Source: Linnemannia hyalina (Eukaryota > Mortierellomycota > Mortierellomycetes > Mortierellales > Mortierellaceae). Taken from it: a stretch of 64,000 nucleotides of DNA. The notes under the pieces are model-generated. The model saw only the letters and a program-made list of their open reading frames with translations, ran no database searches and was not told the DNA's origin. Where the stretch lies: assembly GCA_019671135.1 (NCBI GenBank), contig JAHRHY010000001.1, positions 3,286,001 to 3,350,000 of the forward strand, in the 5' to 3' direction. Shown here in pieces: positions 8,293 through 55,801 of the stretch. Made by a program: the position numbers and the translations under genes. The stretch's first letter is position 1; each line of letters opens with the position of its first letter.

Positions 8293-9378
8293 GAAGGAGA
8301 AATAAAAACTTTAGCTTCTATTTCGACCTTGAACGAATCGCAATTGAAAGAGCGAGGTCCATGAAAAAAACTTGATTCTCCAACTCCCAACGGACGAGAA
8401 GGTATTCTCTCTGTCGTACAGTACTCTTTTCCGCCATGTGTCTGCTGTGATTTCTTTCTGGCTGAGATGTATGAACAGAGTGGGTTTAGCACGGCCTAGT
8501 TGTGAGCATTTTTTCATTCTCAGTTTTGTATCGCCCTTCGTCAAGATCAAGAGGAGAAATAAGGAAAAAGACGAAGGAATGTAAACAACAACGGTTGAAG
8601 CAAAGAAAAGTCAAAGGGGAGAAATAGACAGAGCTGGTAGGAGACAAGACGCCACCAAAGGGGATCAAGACTCAGTTAATATCTTTGAGTGCAAAAAAGA
8701 TGGGTCTCGCCTGCAAGCAGACTTGCTGTGGATCGACGTTTAATGCAAGCCCATTCTTCTTTTCAAGAGGAAAGAAAAAGGACAGATGAACGAACAGAGA
8801 TGACTTAGAGTAGGCGGAGATATTTCATGCAACATGCATGGGTAGGACGTTGGCCATGCAACGATCTGGATCATATCGAACACACTCAATAAAGAACCAT
8901 TCCGTTGGGACGAGACATTGTTCTAGCAACAAATGAATGTATGAGTCAAGGCGGGGGAACTTTGCTGATTGCGACGAAGGCGCCGTCCTTACTTCTTTCT
9001 CCTCTTGAGTCATAACGCAAAAAGAAATAACGCGTAACAAAGCCATGAGTCCAACTCGTTGCCCCTTTATGGTCACCCCTATTTTGAATGTCCCACTTGG
9101 CCTACTGTTACCCCTAACCCTCACCCTAAATGGTTTATGTAATCGGTTGTTTGTGGAGCAACAGAGACAAGAGAAGACAGGAAGAGACCCCCCCACGACA
9201 CACAGGAGGTTGAGACAGAAAGGTAAACAATAGAGTCTTATTTTCCTTCGCAAAAAGTACAAAGTTTGTCCCTGTCCTCAACTTGTCCCCCTTCTCAAAG
9301 GGTGGTAAGGTTGTCGCGTCCGTGGTCTGTGTTACTTGTTCGGATGTCCGTTCTGGATCCTTGGCTGGGGCAATTGCT

Positions 9379-10366
9379 TTACAGGATACCGGTGACTAAG
9401 CCCTCGAGCTCTGCACTATTTCCAGTGCTCTGGTGCTCTCGACCCTCGACATAGGCGGCATAGCGGATCATGGTCGTTGGGAGGACCTCGACTTTGCTTC
9501 CGCACTCGTAGAATTCGGCGTAGTTGACCAGGACAAAGGGGATGGTGGTGATGTTGCCTTTCTCGAGTGATCGTGCACATACGTGCATATTGTGCTCCGC
9601 GATCTTGCCCCAACTATCCACAAAACAGAGTCAGGTTGAAGGAAACGATGACCCCGGATCCAAGGAGGGGACATAATTAAGACGAAGAGTGGAAGGGATG
9701 CGGATTGAATACAAACGTAATAGTAATAAAAAGGAAAATCGATTGGTTAGAATGGGCTGGACACATATCAGTCCCTTTTGCATGAATCACGCAAAAGAGT
9801 TGACTGGGAAGGAAGACGAGGGATCTTGACGGGGGAGAGAGAAAGAGGGAGGAGGGACAGAGGGGAGAAAAGGGCGCTCTCTTGCGATACCGCTGGCTGG
9901 AGGTGGTGCACTCCCGCCTGATCAATCAGCCAAGTCTGCCATTCAGCCAGCAAAGTAATACCACAAACACAAATCACAACACACAACACTACAACAAGGA
10001 CGGAATACAAGAGAGTGGAGAGAAAAGCACAACAAAAAAACCAATGACGATAGGCAAATTGCAAGGAGAAGGAGCAAGCGAGCGAGGGATGGATGCAATA
10101 GGACCAAACTCGGTCAAGTGCTCACTTTCTCCCCTATTATCTAATGTACCGGAGAGGCATGACAAACACACACGCACGCAAACAAAAACGAGAGCAAATG
10201 GCTAAGACACGGACAAAAAAAAACAAAAAAAAATGGACGAGTGAACTTACGGCATGGCGTAGCTGTAGTAGAGAACGACCACTCTCCTGTTGCCGTTGAT
10301 AATCTCGTCCAGCTGCTCCTGGGTCTTGCACTCGATGATGATCGAAGCGATCGTATTGCTTGTCAT
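9379..10366 (-). CDS. thioredoxin-fold protein without CXXC, left paralogue
   Basis: Two exons (10366-10251 and 9613-9379) flank a 637-nt intron (donor GTAAGTTC, acceptor GTGGATAG) and encode 116 residues. The order of elements is that of thioredoxin: strand VVVLYYSY, the active-site loop, then VLPTTMIRY with the expected cis-proline (P84), and a final helix SAELEGLVTGIL. The catalytic CGPC is replaced by MPWG (residues 38-41) before a conserved Lys, so thiol redox activity is not expected. The paralogue at 51603 differs by 10 residues, all encoded by exon 2. The TATA box is kept, but about 257 bp of the 5' leader present in the other copy are missing here. Function is unknown. A chaperone, regulatory or binding role is known for other redox-dead thioredoxin folds, but nothing here shows which applies. 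Confidence 0.8.
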
Positions 10367-10599
10367 GGTGTTCAAGAGAGTTTTGGTGTATGTTGTGTGT
10401 GTTTGCTGTTGTGGGTTGTGTGTGGGGACCGAGGTGTGTCGTCGAACGTAGGAAGAGCAGAGACAGGTACGGAGGAAGAAAAAGGACTGAGCTGTGTTCT
10501 GGGTGAGTGAGAGAGATAATATATGTGTGTGGGTGACGAGAAGAGAAGAGAAGAGAGAAGACAGAAAAGAGAGATGGGTTATCAATGGCGGACGAGATC

Positions 10600-10607
10600 T
10601 TTTTATA
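10600..10607 (-). promoter_or_regulatory. TATA box of the left thioredoxin-like gene
   Basis: TATAAAAA reads on the minus strand within GTATAAAAAGATCTCGTCCGCC. The same context is kept at 51083-51090 in the right arm, although the leader between TATA and ATG has diverged in length. Conservation in both copies supports a real core promoter. Confidence 0.6.
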
Positions 10608-11296
10608 CTCGATCGTTGGATCGACAACCTTTGGCTACTGGTAATAAAAATATTTGATCAACATACACACAGTACATCGATAGTGCAAGGAGAAGAAGGA
10701 AGGATGGAGTATCGCCAACACAACAAGAAAAAAACAAACAAAGATTGTCAAAGGAACACGGCATGGATATTCCATTCATTTCATGCACTCGCTCATTCAT
10801 TATATTAGAATTCACTTTCAATCAATCGTCGACAACAAGAATAACAACAACACCAACGGCAGCAACAGCAACACACTTTTATTTCACAAGAAAGCTGAAA
10901 GGGAGGGTTGATGGAGGAGAAAAAAGAAGGCACTCCACCACCCAGGCCTTCTGAAACCAAGTATCGATACTCTTTTCTTATTTTAACGTGGAAAGATGGA
11001 CTAACAATCAGACTTGTCAACAACCTGGCTGTGCCTGCTCCTTGCTCAAGTCGGTAGTATCAGCTCCAAAGTAAAGGAGGACTAGGTTCATCTTTCGATC
11101 TTGTTTTTTCCGTGGTCGACACTCTTGGCCAACTTTCCTGCGGCCCCCTTTCTCTCCCTCTCCCCATACTCTCGCCCTTTTTCGTACCCCTTCGGAAGAT
11201 GCTATTTTCTTTTTGCACCCAAACAAACTCACAAGATGGGGGGTTGGAAAAAAACAAGGGAGTTAATCATATAGGAAGAATCAAAAGGACGCACAG

Positions 11297-11566
11297 GATA
11301 TGGCAGAGGAGATCAAGCAGAAGGTGCGCAAGAAGATCGCCAAGAGGTTCAGCTCTTCCATCGAAGGTGATACTATCGAATTGTTCAAGTCCAAGTACCA
11401 AGGAGAAAGGTTCGCGACTGAGGTGGTTGAGATGCATACAGGCGAAGATGCTCGTGACAGAAAAGCAGTGTTCGGTTGAGAGGTGAATCGGGTGACTGTC
11501 ATTGGGGATAGTGCAGCACGGGCGATCAAAGGTACAACCAGAGGGGATTTGGGTGTCTGCCCAAAG
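11297..11566 (+). pseudogene. orphan exon-like ORF fragment
   Basis: A 90-codon stretch is framed by an acceptor-like CGCACAG and a donor-like AAG/GTAATG. It reads MAEEIKQKVRKKIAKRF, then IELFKSKYQGERFATEVVEM, then EVNRVTVIGDSAARAIKG, with one TGA at 11477-11479 that could be a former CGA. The amphipathic Lys-rich start and regular codon use suggest former coding sequence. I do not recognise the family. It lies just outside the duplicated block and has no copy at the right arm. Confidence 0.35.
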
Positions 11567-11740
11567 GTAATGAGTTCTAGAAGGAAGAGTGAAAAGAGAA
11601 GGGAAAGATAGATGAAGGTCCACTGGAAGATGGACATGAAGACAAGGAAAGAAAGATATATTTATGAAGGAGAACGGAAAGGAACGAAAGGTAATTCTAC
11701 GGAAATGCTAGTTATTTATATAGAGGTGCGGTTCGGCTAT

Positions 11741-11870
11741 GAGTCCCGGGGGGGCCGGCGTCGAGGGGCCGGTCGATCGTTAGAGCCCTCGAGAGAGATT
11801 TCGGTACGGGGCCCGCTGGTGCCGTTAGGGCATCAGCGTCGGCCCGGAGGACCGAAGTGTGCCGCGACTC
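11741..11870. ncRNA. GC-rich segment able to fold as a three-way junction
   Basis: The 130-bp stretch stands out as GC-rich in AT-rich surroundings. GAGTC (11741-11745) pairs with GACTC (11866-11870). Inside, CGAGGG (11762-11767) pairs with CCCTCG (11786-11791). A long hairpin stacks TTCGGT (11800-11805) on ACCGAA (11851-11856), GGGCC (11809-11813) on GGCCC (11841-11845), and CGCTGGTGCC (11814-11823) on GGCATCAGCG (11829-11838) around a 5-nt loop. A second small hairpin, TTGCTT/AAGCAA, follows near 11930. I cannot match it to a known RNA; a fragment of a large rRNA is one possibility. Strand and expression are unknown. Confidence 0.3.
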
Positions 11871-12259
11871 AGGATCCTAGGGGCCGGTAGGGGACGTGGT
11901 GACCAGATAGACTATAGGTGAACTTGCTTAAGGGGAAGCAAGGAATCTTAACAAGTAACAGCAGCACGTCATATGACCCACCGTAAATCCAAGCAGAAAT
12001 AAAGATGGACTGAATAACATCCTTATATTTTTTTAATTCAGTAAGATTTGCGTTTTTCTGCAGAACGGAGTGTAAGCCAAATGCTATTTTACAAATCGAA
12101 TTCTCATTCTGATTACCTTTTTTTAAAATAATAGACGCCTGAGAGAATGTCGCTGCCTACCTTACCCACGGCTAAGTCGTGGTGAAAAACACGAAAGAGG
12201 AGACATTCGAGAACTCAATCGGGGTGTTCATTCTTTTATAACAAGAGTCAATCCAGCCT

Positions 12260-12535
12260 TTGGTCCAAGAGTCGCAAACCCAGCGGCTGATCGGAGAGTT
12301 TGTTGAGACATTGGCTGTCGGGATGCACGCCGCAGAGGAGACGAAGAGGGCAGAGTTGCAGAAAGCCTCACCGCCAATGACTATAACCAATGTCTATCGT
12401 CGCAAAGCCAAGCGGGATGCTGTCACAAAGGACGAGCGAGAGATCCTTACTCATCTACACGTGCGTCTCGAACCCTACGATACCGACAAGGAGCAACAGG
12501 GTGTTGAGCAGATGGAAATAAATAATGAAACTTGA
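12260..12535 (+). pseudogene. unidentified 91-residue ORF, probable gene fragment
   Basis: The ORF contains QTQRLIGEFVETLAVGMHA and a charged C-terminal half (KDEREILTHLHVRLEPYD). In the same frame upstream, VVKNTKEETFENSIGVF reads in from 12180 but is cut by a stop. The composition looks like real protein, yet no domain is recognisable and there is no clear promoter. It sits among F-box relics, so I take it as the 3' remnant of a broken gene. The stretch 11870-12260 between it and the GC-rich segment shows no other gene. Confidence 0.3.
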
Positions 12536-12659
12536 GCGAATCACATCCATGGGCACAGGGCCTTGAATACACTTTAAAAAATAAAAACATCCACTAAAAG
12601 ACCGACATTCTTCAGTCGGTTTTTCAATTCCCGATCAAACCAGCAATGGTTGATTGGCC

Positions 12660-12930
12660 AATGGAGTTGGAGGCCAAGACGCATGGGGAGGGACTGATGA
12701 AATAGCGCAAGTTCTTTGTCAAGAACATAGAGGAGGTCTTTGTCCGTCCCTTCAGTCTCTGCGATAATTTAAAAGACACTTCCGGGTTCTCCGAGTGGCA
12801 ATATCAGCCCAAAGAGTTGGTCGTGCTCGAGATCTTTGCCGGTCCGTCACTGGCCTCCTTGGATAATCGTGGTCGCCGAGGTGCGTGTCCCCAAACCAAC
12901 CAACACTGTCTGTGAAAATAAATAATATTA
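12660..12930 (-). pseudogene. short fragment related to the F-box gene C-terminus
   Basis: Around 12798-12835 the plus strand reads GGCAATATCAGCCCAAAGAG then TTGGTCGTGCTCGAGAT. It parallels the C-terminal coding part of the neighbouring F-box gene near 13100-13140 (GGCGATACCAGCCCATGAAG then CTGGTCGTACTCGAAAT). The rest is too diverged to join. It probably marks a tandem copy lost by decay. Confidence 0.35.
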
Positions 12931-12936
12931 AGGATA

Positions 12937-14511
12937 TCACCAGGAAGCAGAAAGTCTAGGGTCTGGCGACCGGCTATAGGAAACGAGATTCAAGGCCACA
13001 AACTGAAGCCGGTCCTGCCCCTTGACCATCCCAAACAGCTCCTTCAGGCACAGCTTGGACGGCGCGTCTTCTTCGTCGTGAAGGATTGACGAGTCCTGAG
13101 GGTGGCGATACCAGCCCATGAAGCTGGTCGTACTCGAAATGTCCACAGTATTGCTCAGAGTTCGCCATGCTGGGCCTCCCATCATCCCCATCCCTCCGAT
13201 TTCGCCATCGAAATCGAACGCCAGCTGCTCCAACCCGTGACACCCCCACGGCTGACCCTGTAGAAACTTTAACGTCGCCAGGGTCGACATCCCAGCACTA
13301 CCGCTGAGAGACAACGTCTTGAGTCGGCGGCACTCGACCAATACCCGGAGGATCTCCTTTGGATCAAACGCGCCCTGGAGCTCACAAAAGTAGTCGACAG
13401 TGATGTGTTCCAGGGTGGCAGAGTGGGCCAATATGGAGCAGAGAAGGTCTCGTTCGCTGTTTCTGGGGGTCATGGCTGCAAACTTGATCGTGCTCAGTCC
13501 ATACAAGGAGCAGCCTCGAATAAGGGAGCCAATGGAAAACCCGCGCTCAAATTCGTCGTGATTATCGTTGATGACCAGAATAGAGAGACGCGGACAGTGG
13601 TTTTTGAGAGTACTGGCAAGGCGGCTCATGTCGAATCGTGCGATGGTAATGTCCACCGTGAACTGTTGAAGGTCGGGGCAACATCCGGCTAGATAGATCA
13701 GGTCCGTGTTCTTTGGGAAATATGGCACCCGCAAAGTCTTGACTATGGGCAACACCAGCTCACATCCTCCACTCCCTTTGTCTGCCCCTCCGCTGACTCC
13801 TGTATCGCCTTTACGTCCTTGAGGTTGACCCTTGGGAAGGTCGCTTTCCTTGAAACCATGGACCCCTGAGAGCTCCAGTCTCTCCAATGTCCTCGCCATC
13901 GTCCCCAACGCCTTGACCAGCGATCCCTGATAGCTGTTCCACCGATCCAGTTGCAGATCCCGAATGTTGTCCAGCTGCTCGAAATCTGTCTCGTCCAATC
14001 TTGCCCGCGTTTTGGACGCCTCTGACCCCTCCCACTGCAAAACCTCGACGCCAGGATTCATCCGAACCAGTGTCCGCTGAGTCTGCATGCTCATGTTAGT
14101 CGCCTTGGATGCGACGTCGTACCGCATGTCCAAACTCTCCAACAAGGTGCAATTGAATGGACCATCGCATCCTCCATGCGAACGGAAGTGTCGAAAGAGA
14201 AGGCTGTATCGCGTAATGATACGAGTGGGTACACGTTGCATCTCCTCAAAGTCGTATTCGCGCCATAGGATCGGGAGGAGGGTCCTGTACCAAAGCTTGC
14301 AGACCAGGAAGCAGGCGTGGAAGGTGTTGGGTTGGAATCGACGGATACTGTCTATATTTCCCCACTTGGTCGTCACCGACTGGACTGAGAAATACGGTAG
14401 AAACCATCCTACCCTAGCGAGAATCTCTGGTAGCGCGAGTGCGTCGCGGGCGGAGGCTCTTGAGGACTTTGGGTGTGACTTCTGTTGCTTATTCTTGCGC
14501 CGGGGACCCAT
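12937..14511 (-). CDS. F-box/leucine-rich-repeat protein
   Basis: A single-exon ORF. I choose the ATG at 14511 (MGPRRKNKQQKS), giving 524 residues, because the 55 residues upstream of it in the same frame look like leader sequence. After a basic start comes an F-box-like region (about residues 23-90: ALALPEILARVGWFLPYFS, then HACFLVCKLWYRTLLPILW with the closing Trp). Degenerate leucine-rich repeats follow (LESLDMRYD, LQWEGSEASKTRARLDE, LERLELSGVHGF, LKTLSLSGS). Such proteins usually recruit substrates to SCF ubiquitin ligases through Skp1, and the LRR part gives specificity. The frame is intact, unlike at least three relatives in this window. Expression and substrate cannot be judged from the sequence. 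Confidence 0.8.
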   Translation of the reverse strand: MGPRRKNKQQKSHPKSSRASARDALALPEILARVGWFLPYFSVQSVTTKWGNIDSIRRFQPNTFHACFLVCKLWYRTLLPILWREYDFEEMQRVPTRIITRYSLLFRHFRSHGGCDGPFNCTLLESLDMRYDVASKATNMSMQTQRTLVRMNPGVEVLQWEGSEASKTRARLDETDFEQLDNIRDLQLDRWNSYQGSLVKALGTMARTLERLELSGVHGFKESDLPKGQPQGRKGDTGVSGGADKGSGGCELVLPIVKTLRVPYFPKNTDLIYLAGCCPDLQQFTVDITIARFDMSRLASTLKNHCPRLSILVINDNHDEFERGFSIGSLIRGCSLYGLSTIKFAAMTPRNSERDLLCSILAHSATLEHITVDYFCELQGAFDPKEILRVLVECRRLKTLSLSGSAGMSTLATLKFLQGQPWGCHGLEQLAFDFDGEIGGMGMMGGPAWRTLSNTVDISSTTSFMGWYRHPQDSSILHDEEDAPSKLCLKELFGMVKGQDRLQFVALNLVSYSRSPDPRLSASW

Positions 14512-14749
14512 TGAGTATCGAATTCTTGTTCCTTGGCTCCTTGTATGCTGAAGTCCTGCAGTTGTCCTTTGGTGTCGTTGGTGTTGGAATGAACAGAACA
14601 GATGAGTTCCGTGAATGCCATCTCTTTTTCTCTTGGTAACCCTGCCTGACCATTGATCAGCAGTCACTTTGCTCACGTGCCTTAAGTCTAGGCGCCACTA
14701 AGCACCTGGCCAAGTTCTAAACTTTCATCGGTCGCAGCGGGAAAGCATA

Positions 14750-15330: not shown

Positions 15331-15596
15331 CGTGTCTGAGCTCCTTCCAGGGTCATACTTCGGGAGCGGGAGCGGTAGTGACACGTCACGTGCCGTTCGG
15401 CGCTAAATACGCCCACACGGCACGTTTCACTTTCCAACCACCCGTGGCGGACTATCATCGCCTCTTGAGAATTTGAGATACCCGAACCTCTGTCTCTGAT
15501 ATTCTCGTTCCTGGAAACTGAATCCACCATCGACACTGCCAGCCTTGTGTGCGGCACTGGCACCAATTGAGAAAAGGTCAACTGCCTTCTATTGTA

Positions 15597-15641
15597 CAGC
15601 GCGCTTTCAAAAAGAATGGCCGGAAAAAAAATGAGCAAAAA
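15597..15641 (+). repeat. left terminal inverted repeat of the Tc1-like element
   Basis: It begins CAGCGCGCTTTC and ends near ATGAGCAA. It pairs with 16767-16807 on the opposite strand. Differences from the partner are few (GCGC versus GAGC near the tip, and in the A-rich inner part). Confidence 0.85.
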
Positions 15642-15667
15642 AAATAAAATAGAGAGGGGAGTGTGAG

Positions 15668-16672
15668 TTACCACCTTGTATGACCACCTTTATTTTTAAG
15701 AGCGGCCTTGATCCTTTGAGGCATGCCATCGATGAGTTTGTTGAGGTAGCCCTTTGATATTTCTTTCCATTCCTCGTTAAGAGCGGTCAGCATGTCCTTG
15801 ATGGTTCTTGGGCGGATGCGTCTATGGTGAACGGCGTTCTTCAGGACGGACCACACGTTTTCAATGGGGTTGAGATCAGGACTCTGGGCAGGCCATTTGA
15901 CAGGCGTGACAGAATGTTGTTCCTTCCATTGGCTGGATACCTTGGCACGATGAATAGAGGCCCCATCCTCCATTAAAAAGGCGTTGGAGGTCTGCGCTAG
16001 GAACCCAAGAAGCTCACCCTTGTAGACCAGCTCGATAAAGTCCACCGCCTTGTTCTGGCCAGGAGGGATGACAACAAGATTGGACATACTGCTTCCAACA
16101 AACGCACCCCAAACCATCACAGACGTTCGTCCGCTCTTGAATGATGGGGCAAGACAGGAGTTATGGTACTTCTCCTTCTCTGTCTTCCAAACTCGAACCT
16201 TTCGAAAGTTCTTCCCCACTTCGAACGAAGACTCATCTGTCTATGCAACTTCCCTCCATTCGTCCGCGGTCCAATTCTTATACTTTTTTGCAAAAGCCAA
16301 TCTCGCGGATTTATGGGCAGGAGTAAGATGTAGTTTGACTACTGCAGAACGGCTGAAAATACTGAGACTATGGAGCTTCCTTCTCACTGTAGCCTCGGAG
16401 ACCTTGATGGGGAGAGCATTGGTGATATCACTAAGAGTGGCACGACGGTTCTTGCGGATAACGGCAACGAGGGTCCGGGTATCTCGTTCAGTGAGCTTGC
16501 AGGGGCGACCAGGGGATTTCTTGGTGAGAACAGTTCCTCGTTCCTTGTACTGGGCGAGGATTCGTCGGACAGTTCGTTCACTGACATCGAGAGTGGCGGC
16601 AATCTTGGGGGACTTCACGCCAGCCTTGCTCATGCCCAAGATCTCTCCTCGTTTAACGTCTGAGAGGGCCAT
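15668..16672 (-). pseudogene. Tc1-like DD34E transposase with one nonsense codon
   Basis: The frame runs 334 codons from MALSDVKRGEILGMSKAG to KNKGGHTRW. The N-terminus holds two helix-turn-helix regions with a GRP linker between them (KKSPGRPCKLTERD). The catalytic Asp is in TDESSF, the second in MEDGASIHRA, and the Glu in SPDLNPIENVWSVLK. The only lesion is TAG at 16238-16240 (after REVA), where relatives usually have Trp or another residue before the TDES motif; one G-to-A change from TGG would explain it. Everything downstream is open and conserved, so the stop is probably young. A restart at the ATG at 16219 would lack the first catalytic Asp. Confidence 0.85.
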
Positions 16673-16766
16673 GAGAGAGTAAGAGTGGAAAGGGGAGAAA
16701 AGTGTAAGGATATGGGTGTGTGAATAGAATGGAAAAGAAACAAAAAGAAGAAAAAGAAAAAAAATT

Positions 16767-16807
16767 GCTCACGTTTTATTCCGGCCATTCTTTTTGAAAG
16801 CGCTCTG
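16767..16807 (-). repeat. right terminal inverted repeat of the Tc1-like element
   Basis: Read on the minus strand it begins CAGAGCGCTTTC and reaches CGTGAGCAA. A TA dinucleotide follows at 16808-16809. Confidence 0.85.
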
Positions 16808-17935
16808 TACAGGGATGACCATCGCGGGCTCGAAGAGCTGGAACAAGTAGTCGCCATCTTGCCTAGGGCAACTCATCTCTTTGCTATCTCTTAGACGGCT
16901 TCAATGCCAACGACAACAAGACCACGCTCTTCTTGGGCGCTCTGGAGCACAAAAGAACGCAACTTGCCGGCATACATCCCTCATCATACTTGCCTCCGCG
17001 ATTGCTTCACCAGTGCTACATATTTAGGAGCTGGAGCTGCTGGGATGCTTTAACCTTCTACACGCAATTCCTCCATTCGTCCCTACTTAAAGTCGCTCAC
17101 CCACCTACTCATCCGCCACAACTGCTCCGACCCGTTTTCATTGTTTCGCTTGTTGCTTATCTGCCCTCTTCTGGAAAGTCTTCGTATGGAGCCAGCACAA
17201 CCTATCCGAATATTGGATCTTCGGAAGCGGAAGCTTTTCTCGACTGATAGTCATCAATCTCCTCAACTTCGTCTCCCCTAACAGGTTCTCCGGCGCATTC
17301 AGGTTGCTCAGTTTGCACTGAGGCCATTTCATCCAAGAGTCCCCTCCTCCAGGTTCTCAAGTTGGAATTGGCACAGCCTGCGCCAACCCCACCGTGGAGC
17401 CGTATAAGTTTTGTCATGCACCTCCGGTCGACCTCTATCCGCCACCTGTCGGTTCTCGAGTCACCAGCAAGGGGCCCACGCATCCGGGACGAAACCGCGG
17501 CGGTATGCTCAGATACTACTGAATGGACCTTTCTAGGACGTAGACTGAGCCTTCAGACCATCCATAACCTTAACAACGGACCGAATGTTATGACGCGGCT
17601 GGAGCTGGCTACGTTGCGCCCCATTTGCACGACTTTCTCTGCGACTCACCGCATTTATTGCGCCTCAGGGCACACAGGACTGGGTTTATGTTCTGGCATC
17701 TCGACGTTTTCCGTTCCCTCAGCCCAGCCACCAGCATTTCTACAAATGCGTCGCCACAGCAACAAGCAGAGATCGGTCAAGTGAGACTTTGCGCGGTGGA
17801 GAAGTGGAAGAATGATACAGCGATTTATGAATCGACTTTGAAGGTTCTGCTGCAGCTGGTGCACTGCAGCTTTTTGTCGGATGCGGAGAAGATGATCGAG
17901 AAGCTAGACAGTGGAGACGTCGAATGTTGACCTCG

Positions 17936-44253: not shown

Positions 44254-44257
<4 letters not shown>

Positions 44258-44309
<52 letters not shown>

Positions 44310-44334
44310 TGAGAGAGAGAGAGGGAGAGAGAGA
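44258..44334 (+). repeat. (GT)n followed by (GA)n microsatellite
   Basis: About 25 uninterrupted GT units (44258-44307) pass into a GA-rich run to about 44334. The Thr-His open frames over it on the minus strand are products of the repeat. Confidence 0.95.
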
Positions 44335-45355
44335 ACCGGAAAACAACTACGCCTGCAATTACCACCATTTATCTCTCCAAGGGACACGCCGTCTGCTGTG
44401 AGTTGAGTTTTCGTTCGTTAGTGGGTTCCTTGGCGCGTTCTTTCGTTTCGCTCGGTTGAGCATTTCACCATCCTTCTTCCGCAACCCGACCGCGCTGAAA
44501 AAGAGAAATGAATGAGTGGTGACTACGATAGAGATTGGAGGGCCATACGTTGAACGTTCAAGATAGAGCCCCTCAAAATAGCCCCAGAAAACACAACAGA
44601 TGAAGGACTGAACTTATAACGGGTCGAGGCGCGTAGGGTCGACGAGCATTGCGCTCTTTTTGTTGTTTTTGTGTGTTTGGGGTATGAATGTAACAGCGAG
44701 AAGGCAATGCAAATTAATAAAGTAAGCAAAAACGCCGTGTATCAATTGATGCCAACAGCCGCGTGCGGAATAGATTTTCTGGAAATTAAAAATGGTCTAC
44801 TGTCATTGAGCATCAGGGGAAAAGCGAGTACAAAGTGCAGAAAAGCAATTGAAGGGGGATGCGAGAATGAATGTCATACCGAAATGACCTTCCTCATCCC
44901 CAGCTTTGGATGCAGCACAGAAACACAAATACAAACGCAAACAAATAATCAAAAGACGAAAGAACAATACCAAAAGAAAAGGAGATTAAGTTCTTCTCCA
45001 TTGTTGTGTGCCACGGGACCTTGAGAACCATTTGTTTATGGACAACAGACACGCTGAAGAGGCAATCGATTCAAAGGTACCCATTTTTATCTGAAGGTGA
45101 TCCATGGCCACTGAATGCAAGAGAGAGAGAATAACAGGAGTCCATCATCCAGGTACGCGATCATTAATGGCACTGATACGGTGTCATGTTTGTTTCTGAT
45201 CAATCTACATCAATCAATCATTGAATCAGGGGGGAAGATAAAGTAAAAAGGTCTCGGTCCCAACCAACGAACTAATCCTCCTAGCTGTTACTATACATGT
45301 ATACACCATTCCTCTCAAGCCCCTTCACTCTCTCCCGACTTCGCATTTCGATGTG

Positions 45356-45385
45356 GCGATGCGATGCGATGCGATGCGATGCTTC
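45356..45385 (+). repeat. (GCGAT)6 repeat
   Basis: Six perfect copies of the pentamer GCGAT in tandem. Confidence 0.9.
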
Positions 45386-46309
45386 TTCTCTTGCTACTGG
45401 AAAGGTTCATTTGGGTGCACAAAAAGAGCGCTCTTTCAGTCTTGTGTGGACTTTCCTCATTCTTTTTCCACCACGTTATGACGAGTGGGGTATGGCTCAT
45501 CGATTTTCTCTCCTCTCTCTCTCTGTGTCCCTCCATCTTGTCCACTTCTTTCTTTGAGCACCCATCTCCACTGAACAGATTGTCAGATGACAGGGGTGCC
45601 TGGATTATCGTTGTTTGTTCCTCTCAAACTTCAAAGTACGACAGAGAGAATACCTTCTCGTCCGTTGGGAGTTGGAGAACCACGTTTTTTTCATGGGCCT
45701 CGCTCTTTCAATTGCGATTCGTTCAAAGGTCGAAATAGAAGCTAAATTTTTTATTTCCGACACTCAACCTAATCCCATTCCGTCACCCATCACACTTCTA
45801 TTCACTACATCTGTATTTTTTTCGCTCGCAGTTGAAACCTCTCTCACTCTCCTTCTCTTACGCCCAAAAGTCTCTCCCAGTCTCCCACCCTTGTGTTTTC
45901 CAACCCGCCATCTTGTGAGTTTGTTTGGGTGCAAAAAAAAATTAAAATCTTCCGAAGGGGTACGAAAAAGGGCGAAAGTATGGGGAGAGGGAAAGAAAGG
46001 GGGACCGCGGGAAAGTTGGCCGAGAGAGTCGACGACGAAAAAAAACAAGATCGAAAGATGAACCTAGTCCCCCTTTACTTTGGAGCTGATACTACCGACT
46101 TGAGCAAGGAGCAGGCACAGCCAGGTTGTTGACAAGTCTGATTACTGCCAATTCAATGCTACTCATCGCCCATCTTGATCTCTTTTGTTAGTTCCATCTT
46201 TCCACGTTAAAATAAGAAAAGAGGATCGATACTTGGTTTCAGAAGGCCTGGGTGATGGAGTGCCTTCTTTTTTCTCCTCCATCAACCCTCCCTTTCAGCT
46301 TTCTTGTGA

Positions 46310-49300
46310 TCCAAAAAAAAACTATCCGTCGTCATCATGCTTTCCTTGGAACAGTAATGTGCCAGAAGTATTATGTTATCCATCGAAAACAAAGATAGGA
46401 GAGAGAGGGAGAAAAGTGAATGGAGAGAATGAGAGAGCGAGGAGAGAAGAGAAGAGAATGAAAGGATTGAAGAGATCTTGACTTCCCCCCTTCGCGCTCA
46501 AATGAACCACATAAAACGTGAGTTCAATTTCAATTGAGCAAATGAACGTTTCATTGGTTCTCATTTCACAATAAAAAGTGGACCGATAGTCGACCTAACC
46601 ACAGCTCCCTCGCTCTCTCATTTCTTATTGCGTAGTATGCGGCGAGGTAGGAAGAGGAAGAGGAGCGGAAAGGTGAGAGTAACAGGGCATAAAAGGACAA
46701 CCTGGCCAACAGCCCTCATTTTGATTGTGCTTGTTCTTTAGCAGGGGTTTGTTCTGTTAGCTTGCGAGCCTTCCTAAAAGCATTTCCATGCTCATGGACT
46801 CCTCCGTCCTCGCTTCAGCCTTCTCTCCTTTCTTGTTCGTGTTTTTTTTGCGATCTCATCAGTTGGTGAGGTGAGGTGAGAGTTGGCAGCAGAAACAAAA
46901 ACCCAACGTTTGAGGGCTGACCATTATTTGTGTTTTGTTTTGGCGTGGTCGCACAAATGTAAAACAGCGCAGGTCATGTGGCAGTTCGAAACTAATAACA
47001 ACTTCATCCTCCGCTTTGAGGGAAAGAGAGGAAGTGTGAGGGAAGCGCGAGGTGAGCCTTTTTCGTTTTGTGTCAAATATAAAAACGTGGCGTAACCCTA
47101 CTGCCCGCGTGTACGACCTCGAAAAGAGGAATGGAAAAGAATGGGCGAGACACAAACTAAAAACACGAGGTAAGGCTGATCGCTCTCTGTCTGTCTGAAG
47201 GCGGAGAAAAAAACAACGTTCCCCTTGTGCGATGAACACATGTTCACCGTCAAACAAGAAGGCAAAAAAAAATTTGCCATGCTGCATACAGAGGTCTCTT
47301 CATGTCAGGTTGGGTTTAGATGTCATCAAAGAATCGCGAAAATGAAAAAAGGTGGAGATGAACAAACAATTTGGTGTATCCTTCCATCTAGTCTTGTAAT
47401 GGTTTCCGCCCAGCTTCGCGTTTCCCTTTCTATTTTGCGTCATCGATTGAAGGGGGTGAGATTGTTTATAGAACTGGAATAGGGTAGTAAGAGGAAAGGA
47501 GAGGAGAGGCGTTCGGCAGGATGATGTGTAAGCATGCCCCCCTGTTCTGACCAATCGTTGAGACCTATGGCCATGCAAGAACTAGCGGCATATCGGATGC
47601 AACAAATAGCAAAGCGATGAATTAGATAGGTTGAGAGCTCTCTCTCTTCCTCTCCTTTTTCCTGATGTCGTTTGTGAGAGCGTGTAACACTGTTTTCCGC
47701 TGTTGTCTGATGATGTCGAAATAGCTCGCTCTCTCATTTCCGAATGCTTGCAGAATGAAAATGAACCTTTCGTTTTCATTGTTTTTTGGGTGTCAATGTA
47801 TTTTTGTCGTTATGGTGTTGTTGACATTGCTGGTTGGAATGATGTTGCTCTTTTTTTGTTTGCGGTTATTCTGTTGCGGTCCACTTCGCAAGAAATGAAT
47901 ATTCGACCATCAAAGCAATAAGGACTTGATTGTGCCTGAAAGCAACAAGTTTAATCTTCAATGTTTTCCTTGTTTCCTTATTCACGCGCTTTTGTTGACA
48001 TAGTGTCGAGAACAAGGCGCCAATGGCTCATGGTCATCTGGGCAAAAGAAAGAGTAAAGAGGAGCATATCGCCTCTTCCTCCTACTCTTACTCCTGCCTT
48101 TCCTTTTCGCCCAATTTCCTTGCCTTCGTATGCGTGTTGTGGAAATGTGTCGCATGATGGTATGATACCGCAACCATAAAATAAAACGTAACGATGGGGA
48201 TGGGGATGGGGTAAAAAGGAGGGAAGGGGAGTTTCGTTAGAGAAGGGGACACGGGTACGCTACTGGCATTTAGTCTTGTTGGTTAGTTTTTTGTTGTTTG
48301 ATGTGTCACCCTTTTGAATGGCTAGGGGGTGACCTAAGAGGTGAAGTGTAGGAAGGGAGAAGACAGGGGGTTGACATGGTAGTCGCAGCATAAAAAGATT
48401 GTCAAGGAAAATCAAAAAAGGAGAAAAAATGCCGAAACGTAAGTGAAAAAAACTGGTGGTAATGAGAACGAAAAAACAACAATAGGGAGGGGAATGAGAG
48501 CGAGGGACACGCTGACATCAACACTTACCATTTGGCGAAAACAAGAAGACAAGGCAGAGACGAAAAGAGTTTGGAAACAACATCGACGACCCGCGTCCCT
48601 TTCAAAAAAGGTTTATTCACAAAAAAAGTAATGCATAAATGCTACAGCAACAGCTCCTTATTCTGACTGTCGCTGTTGATATTGTCTCCTTACTCTTTAT
48701 GTTCACCCAATCATTCTCCCCCTCCTTTTCTCCTACTCCTAGGTAAACATAAACAAAAAAATACTTCCGCGGTCGCGTCCTCCGAAACATCAACGAAACG
48801 CGCATCGTCCACTCGGCAAAAAAGAAAGAGAAAATCCGCTTTGGAAACGAATAGTTGAGGAGCATTGCAGAAAAAAAAAGGGGGGGAGAAAAAATGGATA
48901 CAAACAATAACAAACCGGCTTAGCATCGGCAAAGGAGTGATGACATGCTCAATCGTCTGCCTTACTAATGCAGTTAGAGAAGCACTCCTTATCAATTGTT
49001 TTGGAGTTAGTAATGGGTCGGTCAGCAGCGTTATGCAAGACGAACGGGGCACACGCCTGTTGAGGTCGTACGACGGATTATTTCTTTATGACCTTGCTGA
49101 CAGATATTTTTACTTGAACACAGACGTTCTTTTAACACTAATGACCTCGAGAAGGAGTAGAAAGCACAGATAGGATACTTCCTTTTTCTATTGATTTTTT
49201 TTTGTTTTGTTTTGGTAACGATCAATGCCCAGCTGTGACAACAGGCAGACAAATCACCGAACAAAGACGATGCCTGCAGAATGTCATATCATGCTATATC

Positions 49301-50768
49301 GTTTATTTTATTTTATTTATTTTATGTTTTTGGTGAGGCAATGAAGGAAACGTTTATCACACTTTGCCTGATCAACCGCTTTTTGTGGCCTGATGTACAT
49401 AATAAGCACTCTTATCTTTCTCCATAAACATTTATCCGCGATTAGGAAAGGGCCTGTATTTCCTCCAAGAGATGGAGAAAAAAAGTGATGACAATTATAC
49501 GATGAGGAATAAAAAAGCAAAAAGGAGTGAAGGGTGATAAAGAATGGAGTCACTGCGCCTGAAAGACCGAAATCACTACACCGGATGCTCTTTCCTTCGT
49601 ACCTGATTGTCAAATCGACACAAGGGGCAGATTAATGACGATGACGATCTCGATGGAGGGATGTGGTACTGCCGACAGAGGACCCCATCGGCCCTTTTCT
49701 CGCAGTTTGACAACTACAGGAATTGAACGAGAGTGCAAGTGAGCAAAAAGTAACAAGTGAGTGAGTGAGAGTGGGTAAAAGACACATTCACTTTTTTCTT
49801 TCTGTGTCTAGGTCCATGTACTAAGGCACACATGCATTGGACCCATTGAGTGAATTAGAGAACATGACGGTACTGTTGAAATAGGAGTTACACAACACAA
49901 CGGTCTTTATTTTTCCTCTTGTTGCTCTTCCCTCACTTCTCTCGTTCTACCTCGCTCTCGATTACTTTCTGTCTGTCTGTCAGCGACTTTGTCTCCCCAA
50001 CCTTGTCCCCATTTGGTGTGCTCACGCACTTCTTCATCACATAAACATAACAACATAGCCTCTTTTTTTTATGGATGCCTATTACATATACACACACACT
50101 AATGAGAAAGAGAGACAGAGAGAAGGAGAGGACAAAAAGGGGAGGAGACGAGAAAACGACAGCAAAGTGAGAGCGTGGTGCTGTTGAGAGCTCTCCGGTT
50201 TTTATTTTACATGGAATGAATTGAGGAGCACAGGGGCAAATGAATGCAAATGTGTAATATTGAATCAGTGAAATGAATGAAGGAATGAATGAGTTGAATA
50301 AATGAATGACAATATCAAAAACGAGAGCTGTGGGTCGCTTCCTTCGTCCTCTTTTCCTACCCACCTTCGCCTTGTCACTCTTGTCACTTTTTTATTCAAT
50401 CATCTCGTCTATATATTCATTCGTGCTCTCCTTTCACTCACTCGCTTTACCTCTTTGCTGTTGCTCCTATGGTGCCTGGCTCAGTCAATTGCTTAATATT
50501 TGCGGTTTGGTTTATACTCCTCAATATCCTTCTTGAATGAACTTTTTTTTTTACAAACAGGTTTAATGACAAAAAAAACGAAAGGCAACACCGCCCCATA
50601 TTCATACTTTTTTTATTTTTCACCCTATTACTGGGTTCAACTCAGAAAACAATAACGACCTAAGGCTAAAAACGCTTAATGACCGATCTCTTTTTGAAGA
50701 CAAAATGGAGGGAGGAATTTCTTTTACTTGCGTTTGGCAAAGGTGTGTCAGGGCAAAGGGTCATTATG
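46310..50768. other. 4.46 kb present only in the right arm; no gene recognised
   Basis: This is flanked on both sides by sequence that is contiguous in the left arm. I see no terminal repeats, target duplication or transposase, so nothing shows it to be an insertion; loss from the left arm with TCA microhomology fits better. It contains only short biased ORFs, purine- or pyrimidine-rich tracts and a TTTTA repeat near 49303-49326. Confidence 0.5.
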
Positions 50769-50815
50769 AAATAAAAGTGTGTTGCTGTTACTGCTGTCGA
50801 TGTTGTTGATGTTGC

Positions 50816-50869
<54 letters not shown>
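50816..50869 (+). repeat. (TTG)18 microsatellite, expanded relative to the other arm
   Basis: An almost pure run of about 18 TTG units. The equivalent place in the left arm (10838-10873) has only a few interrupted CAA/CAG units, so the expansion followed the duplication. Confidence 0.9.
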
Positions 50870-51082
50870 CGACTATTGATTGAAAGTGAATTCTAATATA
50901 ATGAATGAGCGAGTGAATGAAATGAATGGAGTATCCATGCCGTGTTCCTTTGACAATCTTTATTTGTTTCGTTTCTTGTTGTATTGGTGATACTCCATCC
51001 ATCCTTCTTCTTGCACAATTGATGTATTGTGTGTATGTTGATCAATTATTATTAGCCAAAGGTTGTCGATCCAACGATCAAG

Positions 51083-51090
51083 TATAAAAA
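51083..51090 (+). promoter_or_regulatory. TATA box of the right thioredoxin-like gene
   Basis: TATAAAAA followed by GATCTCGTCCGCCA, identical in core to the left copy at 10607-10600. A pyrimidine-rich leader of about 510 bp separates it from the ATG at 51603. Confidence 0.6.
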
Positions 51091-51602
51091 GATCTCGTCC
51101 GCCATTTATAACCCCATTCTGTCTTCTCTCTTCTCTTCTCTTCTCCTTCACTCTCCATCACTCCCCCTCACTCTTACCGTCACCCACACACACACATATT
51201 ATCTCTCTCACTCACCCCCACTCCCTCTCCTTTTCCCCCTTCTCTCCACACATACACCAACAACTCCTCGAATACTCTTTCCCCGGATCGTTCACCACTC
51301 GCCTTGACTGCACTCCGAACTCAACTCTACTCCACTCCCTAACCTTACACTCAACTCCTACAGCTATCCGCACTGCCCTCGTCGTCACCCTTGTCTGCCC
51401 ACCCCCCTCTCGCTGCCAGCCTTTAATTTCCGTCGTCTTTTTTATTTTTTGCCGCCAAAAAATAAGACCTCTGTCCAGAACCCTTTTTCTTCCTCCGTAC
51501 CTGTCTCTGCTCTTCCTACGTTCGACGACACACCTCGGTCCCCCCACACACAACCCACAACAGCAAACACACACAACATACACCAAAACTCTCTTGAACA
51601 CC

Positions 51603-52591
51603 ATGACAAGCAATACGATCGCTTCGATCATCATCGAGTGCAAGACCCAGGAGCAGCTGGACGAGATTATCAACGGCAACAGGAGAGTGGTCGTTCTCTA
51701 CTACAGCTACGCCATGCCGTAAGTTCACTCGTCCATTTTTTTTTGTTTTTTTTTTGTCCGTGTCTTAGCCATTTGCTCTCGTTTTTGTTTGCGTGCGTGT
51801 GTGTTTGTCATGCCTCTCCGGTACATTAGATAATAGGGGAGAAAGTGAGCACTTGACCGAGTTTGGTCCTATTGCATCCATCCCTCGCTCGCTTGCTCCT
51901 TCTCCTTGCAATTTGCCTATCGTCATTGGTTTTTTTGTTGTGCTTTTCTCTCCACTCTCTTGTATTCCGTCCTTGTTGTAGTGTTGTGTGTTGTGATTTG
52001 TGTTTGTGGTATTACTTTGCTGGCTGAATGGCAGACTTGGCTGATTGATCAGGCGGGAGTGCACCACCTCCAGCCAGCGGTATCGCAAGAGAGCGCCCTT
52101 TTCTCCCCTCTGTCCCTCCTCCCTCTTTCTCTCTCCCCCGACAAGATCCCTCGTCTTCCTTCCCAGTCAACTCTTTTGCGTGATTCAGGCAAAAGGGACT
52201 GATATGTGTCCAGCCCATTCTAACCAATCGATTTTCCTTTTTATTACTATTACGTTTGTATTCAATCCGCATCCCTTCCACTCTTCGTCTTAATTATGTC
52301 CCCTCCTTGGATCCGGCGTCATCGTTTCCTTCAACCTGACTCTGTTTTGTGGATAGTTGGGGCAAGATCGCGGAGCACAAGATGCACGTATGTGCACGAG
52401 CACTCGAGCAAGGCAACATCACCGACATCCCCTTTGTCCTGGTCAACTACGCCGAATTCTACGAGTACGGAAGCAAAGTCGAAGTCCTCCCAACGACCAT
52501 GATCCGCTATGCCGCCTATGTCGACGGTCAAGAGCGCCATAGCACTGGAAATAGTGCAGAGCTCGAGGGCTTAGTCACCGGTATCCTGTAA
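51603..52591 (+). CDS. thioredoxin-fold protein without CXXC, right paralogue
   Basis: Exons 51603-51718 and 52357-52591 encode 116 residues; the intron is 638 nt (GTAAGTTC ... GTGGATAG). The start is the first ATG of the short frame (MTSNTIASIIIECKTQEQ). The open frame from 51063 is leader sequence and not needed. The fold follows thioredoxin: VVVLYYSY strand, active-site loop with MPWG in place of CGPC, conserved Lys42, cis-Pro in VLPTTMIRY (P84), and C-terminal helix. Exon 1 is identical in DNA to the left copy. Exon 2 differs at 11 of 235 bases, 10 of which change amino acids. The leader is about 257 bp longer than at the left copy. Both copies keep an open frame, so both may be expressed. 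Confidence 0.8.
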
Positions 52592-55500
52592 AGCAATTGC
52601 CCCAGCCAAGGATCCAGAACGGACATCCGAACAAGTAACACAGACCACGGACGCGACAATTTTACCACCCTTTGAGAAGGAGGACAAGTTGAGGACAGGA
52701 ACAAACTTTGTACTTTTTGCGAAGGAAAATAAGACCGGCCCGGACCCTATTGCTTTTGTCATTACCTTTTCTTTGTCAATTTGCATCCACACACATTACA
52801 TATAACATATCCTTGCTACATATCTTCTTTTTTTCTAATAATTCTTGATTTCATTTTCCTTCTTCTGCGGTGTTTGCCTGTGCTTTTCTTCATTCTCCTC
52901 TCGTTCTTTTAACCTTTCCTTTGTACCTTCAATACTTCTATTCTGTGTGATGCAAGGCAGTCTGCTATTTTCAGGTCTGTTCAGATGAGAGTTTGCTTTC
53001 TTCCTTGCGTTGCGCACATAATTCTTTGCTCCTCTTCCCCTCCTTCCCTGCCACTCCTATTAAAACAAACGTAATAATTAATTATTGTAGTTCAATTCCG
53101 TGGTACGATATCATTTCGAATGCGCAAAGGTTCTTCTTTCTTTCCTTCTTTGAGTCCCTGACTCCCTGACTGACTATTGAAAGGTGATGCGTGAATCAAG
53201 TCAGCATCGCATCTCTCTCTCAGCCCTTGATATCGTTTGTAGTTTGACAAAGGTATGAGATGCAGAACTTTGTGACAAAACAGCTTCAGCCTAGGAGGCG
53301 ATGCACTCAAACAAATCAAACATTAGCAACAACAACAATCAACAGTGTTATCGTCTGCACGAAGCAAACAAGGGTGGCGAGTAACAGATGCGTCCCCTTT
53401 GGTTCTATTTGTGTCCACTCTTCCGCCTCATACATTGGTATTTCTTCTGACATATCGCATCCTTTTTTTCTTTCTTCAACCACTTCTTTGACTTGAACGC
53501 GCCTTTATTTCTATTCTATTCTATTCTGTTCTATTCTATCATTTACTTTTGTCTTTATGTACAAGTGTGTGTATGTATGTGTGTCTGCACGCCAGACACA
53601 TACTCCGGCATCGGACAAAATGAAAACACAGCAGCAACAAACAAAATTGCTTGATAGTGGAATAGAAAGAATAAGAGAGGGAGAGAGGAGAGCAAAATGG
53701 AGGATGGACGGATGAGCACAATTGGTTATTATTTTTTTGTTTTTGTTTTTGTTTTTGTTTTCGATCTAGCTGCATCTATTGTTTTATTGTTGTTGTCTCT
53801 ATTGTTTACCTTTCTGTCTCAACCTCCTGTGTGTCGTGGGGGGGTCTCTTCCTGTCTTCTCTTGTCTCTCAGAGTTGCTCCACAAACAACCGATTACATA
53901 AACCATTTAGGGTGAGGGTTAGGGGTAACAGTAGGCAAGTGGGACATTCAAAATAGGGGTGACCAAAAAGGGGCAACGAGTTGGACTCATGGCTTTGTTA
54001 CGCGTTATTTCTTTTTGCGTTATTACTCAGGACGTGAAAGAAGTAAGGACGGCGCCTTCGTCTTTGCATAGCATATTATCGGTTCCACGTTGGCAGAGAA
54101 TGGCAATTGATGCCATTCTCCAACCCCCCGCCCTTTCTTCTTTCTTTCCCACTCATTCCCCATGCGACCTCGACCTCATTTTCACTTTCATCATACACCT
54201 CCTGCCCACTTTGTCTTTCAAAGAAAGGGCTCAATCCTCATTTTACTTTAATTCCGCTTCTCCCCTTTAGCTTAGCCTTGTCTCTCTTGTCCAGTGCACA
54301 CACTGCTCTCACTTTTCGTCCTTCTCGTACACGTCGTTCGCTCATTCGCTCTCGGCTCCCTCCCGCTGGTTGGCACCTTCATCCCCCATTCATTAGTTTC
54401 TTCTCCCGACGGTGGACGGCGCGAAAAGATTGTGTCTTACATTACCCCGCCCTTTTTTTTTTGTCTTCCACTGTCGCAACAATAACGACGACGACGACAG
54501 CAACAACGCCGACCACAAAAAAAAAGTCCTGGCGTCCATCATAGCACCATCGGAACTCGTTGCAGCTAAACATATGGTTGGACACAAAGCGCGGCGGTGG
54601 CGAGGTCAGTGTCAACTAACAACGTACTAAGTGCGTGAATATAATTATTTTTTTTTGCGATCGAGGAGAGAAAAAGAAAAAAAGCCATCTCGCCTCTCTC
54701 GCTCCATGCCTTTTCCCACCTGCCACCAAGTATGAACATTCGCGCACTTATTGTTGAAGGTGCACACTGACGAAAAACTTTAGCTTGAGTGTTTGTTTTC
54801 GTTGGCGAGGTTGTTGTGCCATACTTAATGTGCAGTCGGTCGACGTCTTGTTTACGAGTCGATGATGTATGGTGGCATTTTCGTTCATTTTCTTTAGATT
54901 CAGCGAGTGGGACCCCGCGCCCCCCATTTATAATGTTGCCTACTTCGTACCCTCTTTACAGTACCTACAGCACTATTACTCAGGAGAAAAATCAAAGGAA
55001 GCAGAGGAGGAGATGGGAGTAGAAGCGAAGGAACTCAACTTTTTTCATTCACTGATGCGAGGAAGCAATTGTGCGTGTTGATAGTCTTTTGGGAAAGGAA
55101 TTTGAGAAAGAGGAAGATGCAGTTGAAGAAAAGAGAGGAAAATGAACACATACATTTCCATTCTTCTTTTTACAGCAATCAGCAAAGTTCTCCCGCCTTG
55201 ACTCATACGGTCATTTGTTGCTTGAGCAATGTCTCAACCCAAAGGAACAGTCATACGTTTGGGCCCAATAGGGAGGGATGCTGCGATTACGGCGAGATGC
55301 TCGACCAACGGAATGGTTCTTTGTTGAGTGTGTTCGATATGATCCAGATAGTTGCATGGCCAACGTCCTACTCATGCATGTTGCATGAAATATCCCCACC
55401 TATTCTAAGTCATCTCTGTTCGTTCATCTCATGTCGCCTGTCCTTTTTCTTTCCTTTTGAAAAGAAGAATGGCCTTGCATTAAACGTCGATCCACAGCAA

Positions 55501-55801
55501 GTCTGCTTGCAGGCGAGACCCATCTTTTTTGAACTCAAAGATATTAACTGAGTCTTGATCCCCTTTGGTGTCGTCTTGTCTCCTGCCAGATCTGTCTATT
55601 TCTCCCCTTTGACTTTTCTTTGCTTCAACCGTTGTTCACATTCCTTCGTCTTCTTCCTTATAACTCCTCTTGATCTTGACGAAGGGCGATACAAAACTGA
55701 GAATGAAAAAATGCTCACAACTAGGCCGTGCTAAACCCACTCTGTTCATACATCTCAGCCTGAAAGAAATCATAGCAGACACATGGCGGAAAAGAGTACT
55801 G

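Follow-up and report, generated by a model that had tools for sequence, protein, structure and literature searches.

An inverted, circularly permuted duplication of an intron-bearing gene between two truncated pogo-like transposons in Linnemannia hyalina

Circle-mediated duplication or translocation has base-level support in human, cattle and wine yeast, and the earlier note on this DNA was right to name such cases from animals and yeast (PMC7450558, PMC3053389). In the human cSDPs described by Chicote et al. (2020, PMC7450558), the block order changes from A-B/C-D to B-A/D-C, the closing junction shares at most 2 bp, the donor ends are without homology, and the acceptor is a non-tandem site within interspersed repeats; in all these respects they resemble the locus analyzed here. 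A survey of 306 rice-blast genomes for circle-mediated translocations reported none, within limits such as its restriction to non-repetitive regions (PMC9694575). Among the best-ranked matches listed from the open-access literature, none described a circle-mediated case in the fungal lineage of L. hyalina. The kind of event considered below is thus already known, while the lineage is unusual.

Order and orientation of the two arms

Self-BLAST of the window, i.e., the whole stretch of 64,000 nucleotides that was analyzed, revealed an arm map that was re-checked by base-level alignment, with which it agrees. The features are as follows:

8299-11260: left arm (copy), matching the right locus on its minus strand, by self-BLAST and base-level alignment
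8299..8419, plus strand: segment A, copy of 45757-45636 (minus strand), with 117 matches, 4 mismatches and 1 gap
8420..10889 (8419-10889 in the alignment), plus strand: segment B, matching six non-adjacent pieces within 55801-50764 (minus strand)
10884..11260, plus strand: segment C, copy of 46309-46185 and 46143-45888 (minus strand)
45636..55801, minus strand: donor locus, 10,166 bp
45758..45887, minus strand: donor stretch between the positions of the arm's outer ends, 130 bp, where a circle would have opened

All pieces of the left arm pair with the minus strand of the right locus, in the cyclic order A-B-C against B-C-A. This is one cyclic rotation of the donor order in a single orientation throughout, as a circle would leave it. 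The closest arm-to-arm piece spans 1,254 bp at 98% identity (E = 0), which excludes chance. The inverted, circularly permuted duplication claimed in the earlier note is therefore real, and the alignment confirms its A/B join at 8419/8420, which brings 45636/7 next to 55801; its arm limits, 8298-11262, are corrected to 8299-11260. The right-arm order of B, spacer, C and A that it gave also stands, but not the continuity of B and C, both of which are interrupted, and its description was incomplete as to the flanking transposons, the filler at 11261-11278 and the gene inside B.

In the donor, the arm's two outer ends fall at 45757 and 45888, with 130 bp between them; the opening had previously been placed at 45777-45885. 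The intervening sequence, 45758-45887, was not found in the left arm, its top match within 5001-13000 having an E of 0.026 over 26 bp. It is this proximity of the copy's two ends that makes us prefer a circle, as about 1-3% of linear copies would be expected to end so close to where they began (an estimate from 130/10,166, for one or two sides). The closing junction shares 1 bp, as expected from end joining, and a comparison of the 600-bp surroundings of the two donor ends gave no significant match (best E 0.12).

Our best reading, to which we give slightly less than an even chance, is that a ~10.2-kb donor circle was reintegrated at a break in transposon sequence and subsequently eroded. A segment of the right locus of about 10.17 kb (45636-55801), carrying one small gene and with ends that share almost no sequence, would have circularized. 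The circle would have opened between C and A (45758-45887), losing 130 bp, and would have been joined, inverted, into a break 35 kb away that was flanked by two truncated pogo-like transposons. The right-hand joint would have been extended by a polymerase that used the acceptor transposon as its template for 15-18 bases. The copy would then, or in part while it was being made, have lost about 7 kb outside the gene at seven sites, and gene conversion between the arms would have re-copied part of the gene.

The permutation depends on segment A alone, which at 121 bp is short enough to have moved by itself in one arm after a collinear inverted duplication. This is very improbable, as A would have had to land by B in the correct orientation, with its other copy 130 bp from C, and extra events are needed; moreover, own-genome searches located A in the two arms only. 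The same order would also be obtained, as the earlier note had proposed, from a tandem pair at the right locus, if a copy spanning the tandem junction moved to the left and the tandem then collapsed. We consider this intermediate improbable, given that no relic of a second unit was found beside the right locus at E 1e-5, that a copy of 0.987 unit with ends 130 bp apart would be a coincidence, and that the collapse is an extra step.

Two own-genome searches, in which the best candidates alone were scored, detected no third copy of the duplication; the short matches, of 42-69 bp, were on contigs C1, C2, C3 and C4. Besides the left arm, the donor locus matched only about 43 bp on C4 and, on contig C23, the two exons of a diverged paralogue of the gene described below (75-77% over both exons).

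The duplicated gene and the divergence of its copies

The cargo of the duplication is a complete intron-bearing gene with a protein product of 116 aa, present as two copies:

9379..10366, minus strand: left gene copy, exon 1 10366-10251, exon 2 9613-9379
51603..52591, plus strand: right gene copy, probably parental, exon 1 51603-51718, exon 2 52357-52591

The left product is identical to the NCBI protein KI688_000935 of Linnemannia hyalina, so that the left gene is publicly annotated. The intron is retained in both copies (638 bp on the right, 637 bp on the left), each of which also has a start and a stop. Because the copied gene still holds its intron, a retrocopy is ruled out, as is a circular-RNA copy, the kb-sized gaps described below having no splice signals.

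The right copy is probably the parent, because the left protein deviates at conserved residues, namely, K47 (K in 47/47 others) and A54 (A in 43/47, E in 4). The branch length is 0.074 for the left copy vs 0.035 for the right one, the nearest branch being that of Mortierella sp. GBA39. The reverse holds at positions 62 and 100, where the right copy has the rare residue (D in 4/47 and H in 1/47, respectively). Between the copies, nine codons differ in the amino acid and one is silently changed, all in exon 2; these protein changes are too few for any claim of selection. No Pfam domain (best E 0.14) and no solved structural relative (best E 0.28) was found for the 116-aa product. Several of its homologues bear the UniRef name 'Thioredoxin domain'; by eye, the CXXC pair is absent. 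No further donor genes were recognized among ten of its open frames, of 111-226 aa, which are without a Pfam match, and the window contains no known RNA families or tRNA.

Alignment of the arms covers 2,932 sites, with differences at 92. This divergence speaks against an assembly artefact as the origin of the second arm, as do the PacBio assembly, with a mean polymerase read length of 21.9 kb, and the presence of the left gene in the public annotation; nothing was found in favor of such an artefact, and it is extremely improbable. The substitutions are unevenly distributed, with 4% between the arms elsewhere and zero in one tract:

9830..10485, no strand assigned: substitution-free tract, 656 bp, bounded on one side by the 264-bp gap and containing two small indels

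When the 92 substitutions were shuffled 10,000 times, no clean run exceeded 414. The tract is likely the product of a later gene conversion between the arms and, as it stops at the 264-bp gap, this gap is suggested to be older than the conversion.

Missing stretches, acceptor transposons and filler

The left arm keeps about 3,009 of the 10,166 donor bases, with seven internal interruptions, a count that omits smaller gaps within pieces, e.g., 48 bases of a CAA repeat and 10 bases in B1. In donor coordinates, the stretches missing at the left are as follows:

near 55304-55239, donor: 49-66 bp, depending on the alignment, with TTGG at both edges
55174-54063, donor: 1,112 bp
53796-52736, donor: 1,061 bp
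51481-51218, donor: 264 bp
51177-51150, donor: 28 bp
50763-46310, donor: 4,454 bp
46184-46144, donor: 41 bp

The three kb-sized gaps share only 0, 1 and 3 bp at their edges, and splice signals (GT-AG edges) are absent from them. Elsewhere in the genome, the missing stretches have one match only, the already mentioned ~43 bp on C4, in a search that skipped simple repeats and whose results are lower bounds. With no other genomic place, minimal shared edges and no splice signals, the gaps are more likely losses from the left arm than insertions into the right locus, and the latter are unsupported as their source. The blocks lack the strict continuity that could be asked of a circle-mediated duplication; the criteria used for the human cSDPs admit later insertions and deletions within blocks (PMC7450558).

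A circle leaves these seven interruptions, which amount to about 70% of the donor, unpredicted. Consequently, the statement of the earlier note that a circle gives exactly this order holds for the rotation and the 130-bp spacing, but not for the exactness, all the more as template switching can give the same map.

The left arm sits between two truncated pogo-like transposons, one of them separated from it by a short filler:

6034..8298, plus strand: pogo-A, 5' part of a pogo-like DDE transposon, left side of the acceptor, left end CAGTC... at 6034 after TA
11261..11278, minus strand: filler at the arm's right end, 18 bp, inverted copy of 6139-6156 (17/18 bases)
11276..12072, plus strand: pogo-B, 3' end of a second pogo-like transposon, right side of the acceptor, 5' part missing

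The transposase of pogo-A is encoded at about 6208-8292 (exon limits by eye), with the stop TAG at 8290-8292, and its frame is disrupted by a 14-bp tandem repeat at 7952-7979; the 3' end of the element was not found. It matches the Pfam domain DDE_1 on 7085-7978 (E 2.9e-20) and, below the cut-off of that domain, CENP-B_N on 6160-6540 (E 9e-4). Contig C15 carries a second, truncated pogo-A copy (6034-7276 at 93%), the similarity of which begins at the same base. The pogo-B element is split by another repeat at 11469-11954, and its right end, ...GGAGTG before TA, was placed by eye.

A cargo flanked by pogo-like left and right ends, each beside TA and with first bases that are loosely alike (9/13, by eye), could be a composite pogo element, from 6034 to about 12072, that captured the gene region in gap repair after excision. 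Such a transduplication is decidedly improbable. The left-hand and right-hand ends come from different pogo-like families and have only the TA on both sides in place of matching terminal repeats; additionally, no second copy of the composite element was seen in the own-genome search, and the broken transposase frame also argues against it.

None of 2,000 random 18-mers from the window matched 6034-8298 with at most one mismatch, and the filler 18-mer has one more match in the window, at 57047-57064, with two mismatches. The pair 6139-6156/11261-11278 is less likely to be a terminal repeat of the transposon itself, because the element begins at 6034 and the pogo-B similarity begins at 11276. 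The motif TAGGAAG is present in the filler (11272-11278) and at the opposite edge of the arm (8290-8296); its third occurrence, inside the arm at 10449, makes a target duplication a weak reading.

MMBIR/FoSTeS rearrangements carry microhomology and templated insertions and may in this be like the arm described here; the filler, compared with the inverted 6139-6156, has the form of such a templated insertion. With no circle, a break inside one of the pogo transposons or between them could have been repaired by replication that switched template serially (either MMBIR/FoSTeS-like or as an interrupted gap repair). The right locus would have been invaded near 45.8 kb by one broken end or by both, with copying in opposite directions, A one way and C and B the other, and with skipping; 18 bp from the 5' part of the acceptor would also have been copied, and end joining at 8419/8420 would have been the last step. 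We regard this route as rather unlikely but as a serious rival of the circle, for it accounts for the nine-piece patchwork and the inverted filler, and its internal gaps need no later events. Ten additional bases, seen by eye close to the B3/B4 junction, and the end of the substitution-free tract at the 264-bp gap, suggesting that the gap predates conversion, also favor it. Microhomology adds up to 13 bp over 7 junctions vs 4.7 expected (P 0.0055; 4/7 values by eye, the low-complexity 28-bp gap left out), although later deletions between short repeats would look alike. Nevertheless, this route requires that two ends invade at sites no more than 130 bp apart and then diverge, or that one strand jump back 10.2 kb and halt 130 bp from its starting point. 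Nor are substitutions raised beside the A|B junction, which is bordered by 44 identical bp at the end of A and by 27 at the start of B.

Comparison with described systems

The copy is too patchy and old for proof of a circle. The fuller version of the circle reading is somewhat unlikely: that formation of the circle and replicative insertion belong to one event, outside yeasts and in an early-diverging fungus, in which the circle entered a broken transposon joint by template switching partly copied from the transposon, with the copies still recombining later. If the circle is true, the locus would be a gene-bearing example from Mortierellomycota whose acceptor may hold a templated scar, indicating that the route exists in fungi outside yeasts, and the reading supplies a searchable junction, 45636/55801, for circle DNA. 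If template switching acted instead, the arm would be a natural multi-piece repair patch bearing a whole gene.

The complex rearrangements attributed to MMBIR/FoSTeS (PMC2621351) also contain discontinuous duplicated pieces; unlike them, the arm has a strict cyclic order, one donor locus and one orientation. The hAT transduplication of histone H3 in Dothideomycetes (PMC6710886) likewise places a fungal host gene amid parts of a DNA transposon. That case exists in many copies, with inverted repeats that match and target duplications of 8 bp, whereas here there are two different half-elements, one copy and a kept intron.

The human cSDPs (PMC7450558) differ from this locus in their size of 22-3,918 kb, in junction losses of 1-27 bp and in having outgroups without the derivative; here, the size is 10 kb, about 70% is missing, and 130 bp were lost at the opening. 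The human eccDNA-mediated duplications of Takahashi and Innan (2020, PMC7188851) have, as here, two flipped blocks and a separate acceptor; they are three cases of about 20-130 kb, in whose account we saw no description of comparable internal losses. The caveat given with them, that cases on the same chromosome may be nested events, applies here also. The 17-kb region B of wine yeast, which spread by way of a circular extrachromosomal form (Galeote et al. 2011, PMC3053389), is also fungal and circularly permuted. Its integration is nonhomologous, as here, with possible microhomology of 2-3 bases at 4/6 insertions; region B has several permuted copies and a tested replication origin, compared with the one copy in L. 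hyalina.

Circular order of the two arms

Comparison of the window with itself identified ten matching stretches, in a single orientation, between the left arm (8299-11260, plus strand) and the right locus, the putative donor (45636-55801, minus strand). Along the left arm, the donor coordinates descend throughout, with a sole exception: at the A/B junction they return from 45636 to 55801. The circular permutation proposed in the earlier note was borne out. Segment B, which had been described as continuous, was found to consist of six donor pieces, and C is also interrupted, by a 41-bp gap. About 3,009 of the 10,166 donor bases are kept in the left arm.

Donor counterparts of the left-arm segments (merged self-comparison stretches)
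45757-45636, minus strand, segment A
55801-55297, 55247-55175, 54062-53797, 52735-51482, 51217-51178 and 51149-50764, minus strand, segment B
46309-46185 and 46143-45888, minus strand, segment C

Neither the left arm nor the right locus, used as a query against the same genome, revealed a third copy of the arm among the best candidates; besides a diverged paralogue of the gene that it carries, located on contig C23 (75-77% across its two exons), the remaining matches were short.

The carried gene and the divergence between arms

Only one gene was recognised in the donor; it codes for a 116-aa protein and has one intron (exon 1, 51603-51718; exon 2, 52357-52591). No stop-to-stop open frame longer than 226 aa is present in 42966-58856 (about 16 kb), where this gene was also the only one recognised; the ten other donor open frames compared with Pfam had no match, and no Pfam domain was found in the 116-aa protein. 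The left gene copy matches the right one in structure and keeps its frame open, and its product is identical in every residue to KI688_000935 (P0001) of Linnemannia hyalina. Downstream of the gene, a telomere-like sequence, ACCCCTAACCCTCACCCTAA, is identical between the arms (9110-9129 and 53907-53926).

Over 2,932 aligned sites, the arms show 92 substitutions, whose distribution among eight segments is uneven (chi-square 41.7, 7 degrees of freedom, P 6e-7). The stretch 9830-10485, which takes in exon 1 plus roughly two thirds of the intron, has zero substitutions versus 4.0% elsewhere, while the longest substitution-free run over 10,000 shuffles was 414. Later gene conversion between the arms probably explains this stretch, and its ending at the edge of a 264-bp gap suggests that the gap predates the conversion. 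Since the arms are inverted relative to each other, a crossover between them could invert the intervening 35 kb.

All nine amino-acid differences between the left and right proteins are encoded by exon 2. A search at E 0.001 or better gave 64 homologues, left copy included, and those named by organism all belong to Mortierella and related genera. Based on an alignment of 46 of the 64, selected by length, plus the C23 paralogue, the left copy has asparagine at position 47 (lysine in 47/47 other sequences) and serine at position 54 (alanine in 43/47, glutamate in 4/47), positions 62 and 100 set the right copy apart (D in 4/47 and H in 1/47, respectively), and the other five sites are variable across relatives. 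A 37-row tree, built from 34 of the 64 homologues and three more sequences, places the two copies as sisters (support 98/87, bootstrap not settled) with Mortierella sp. GBA39 as their nearest neighbour (91/82); the left-copy branch is about twice as long as the right-copy branch. These relationships fit a duplication after the split from Mortierella sp. GBA39, with the right copy as the parent; they fall short of proof because changes have occurred in both copies and the probably converted stretch includes exon 1.

The acceptor site

Pogo elements start with CAGT and duplicate TA. To the left of A, a pogo-like transposon, pogo-A, starts at 6034, the identical base at which the similarity of a copy on contig C15 begins. 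Its transposase gene, with the frame shifted near the end by a 14-bp tandem duplication (7952-7979), stops at TAG 8290-8292, six bases ahead of A; no 3' end of pogo-A was found. In the C15 copy (L025:6187), similarity stops inside the transposase and other sequence follows. The sequence starting at 11276 is similar to the 3' terminus of another pogo-like element, pogo-B, which has relatives on contigs C1 and C8. A sharp-edged repeat of about 486 bp, with further copies (78-89%) on C33, C12 and C13, among others, splits the pogo-B sequence at 11469-11954; the latter ends near 12072, where it resembles the end of a small palindromic MITE-like element on C22; this right end (11981-12074) has many short, often paired inverted matches genome-wide. 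With part of pogo-A on the left and a different pogo-like 3' end on the right, the arm is, judged from these similarities, located at the joint between two truncated transposons. The motif TAGGAAG flanks the arm on either side (8290 and 11272) and also occurs within it (10449). Self-comparison of the window also showed a Tc1/mariner-like element at 15593-16811, with inverted ends of about 46 bp and transposase-like open frames at 15671-16240 and 16244-16768, the second with Pfam HTH_Tnp_Tc3_2.

Origin of the left arm and known cases

In the proposed circle, the donor would have been closed at 45636/55801, opened at 45758-45887 and inserted at the left. The order and the orientation, together with the closeness of the left arm's outer ends, which map 130 bp apart in the donor, make a circle more likely than either a linear copy or a tandem intermediate; given random stopping points, we estimate that this closeness alone speaks roughly 40-80 to 1 for the circle. 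Template-switching repair (MMBIR) without a circle would yield the seven internal losses at once, whereas a circle does not predict them, and the continuous blocks of the strict form of circle-mediated duplication are not found here. Right of C, an 18-bp filler (11261-11278) is an inverted copy of 6139-6156 (17/18 bases); none of 2,000 random 18-mers from the window, draws within the target being skipped, matched 6034-8298 with at most one mismatch. Polymerase copying during joining would best explain the filler and may go along with circle insertion, given that, in the study of human circle-mediated duplications, insertion could be accounted for by either end joining or MMBIR (PMC7450558). 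Weighing order, orientation and closeness against the internal losses, with the filler compatible with circle insertion, we tentatively give a circle-mediated origin close to an even chance and regard template switching without a circle as less likely, though a serious rival.

Circle-mediated cases have been described in human, with end joining proposed for closure (PMC7450558), and in wine yeast (PMC3053389). These papers and a rice-blast paper cite a case in cattle; the latter reports none among 306 rice-blast genomes, within limits such as a restriction to non-repetitive regions (PMC9694575). The best-ranked, mainly open-access Mortierella/Mucoromycota literature yielded no case from this lineage. 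Despite its interrupted blocks, the permuted left arm would, on the circle reading, belong to an already known kind, the circle-mediated duplication.
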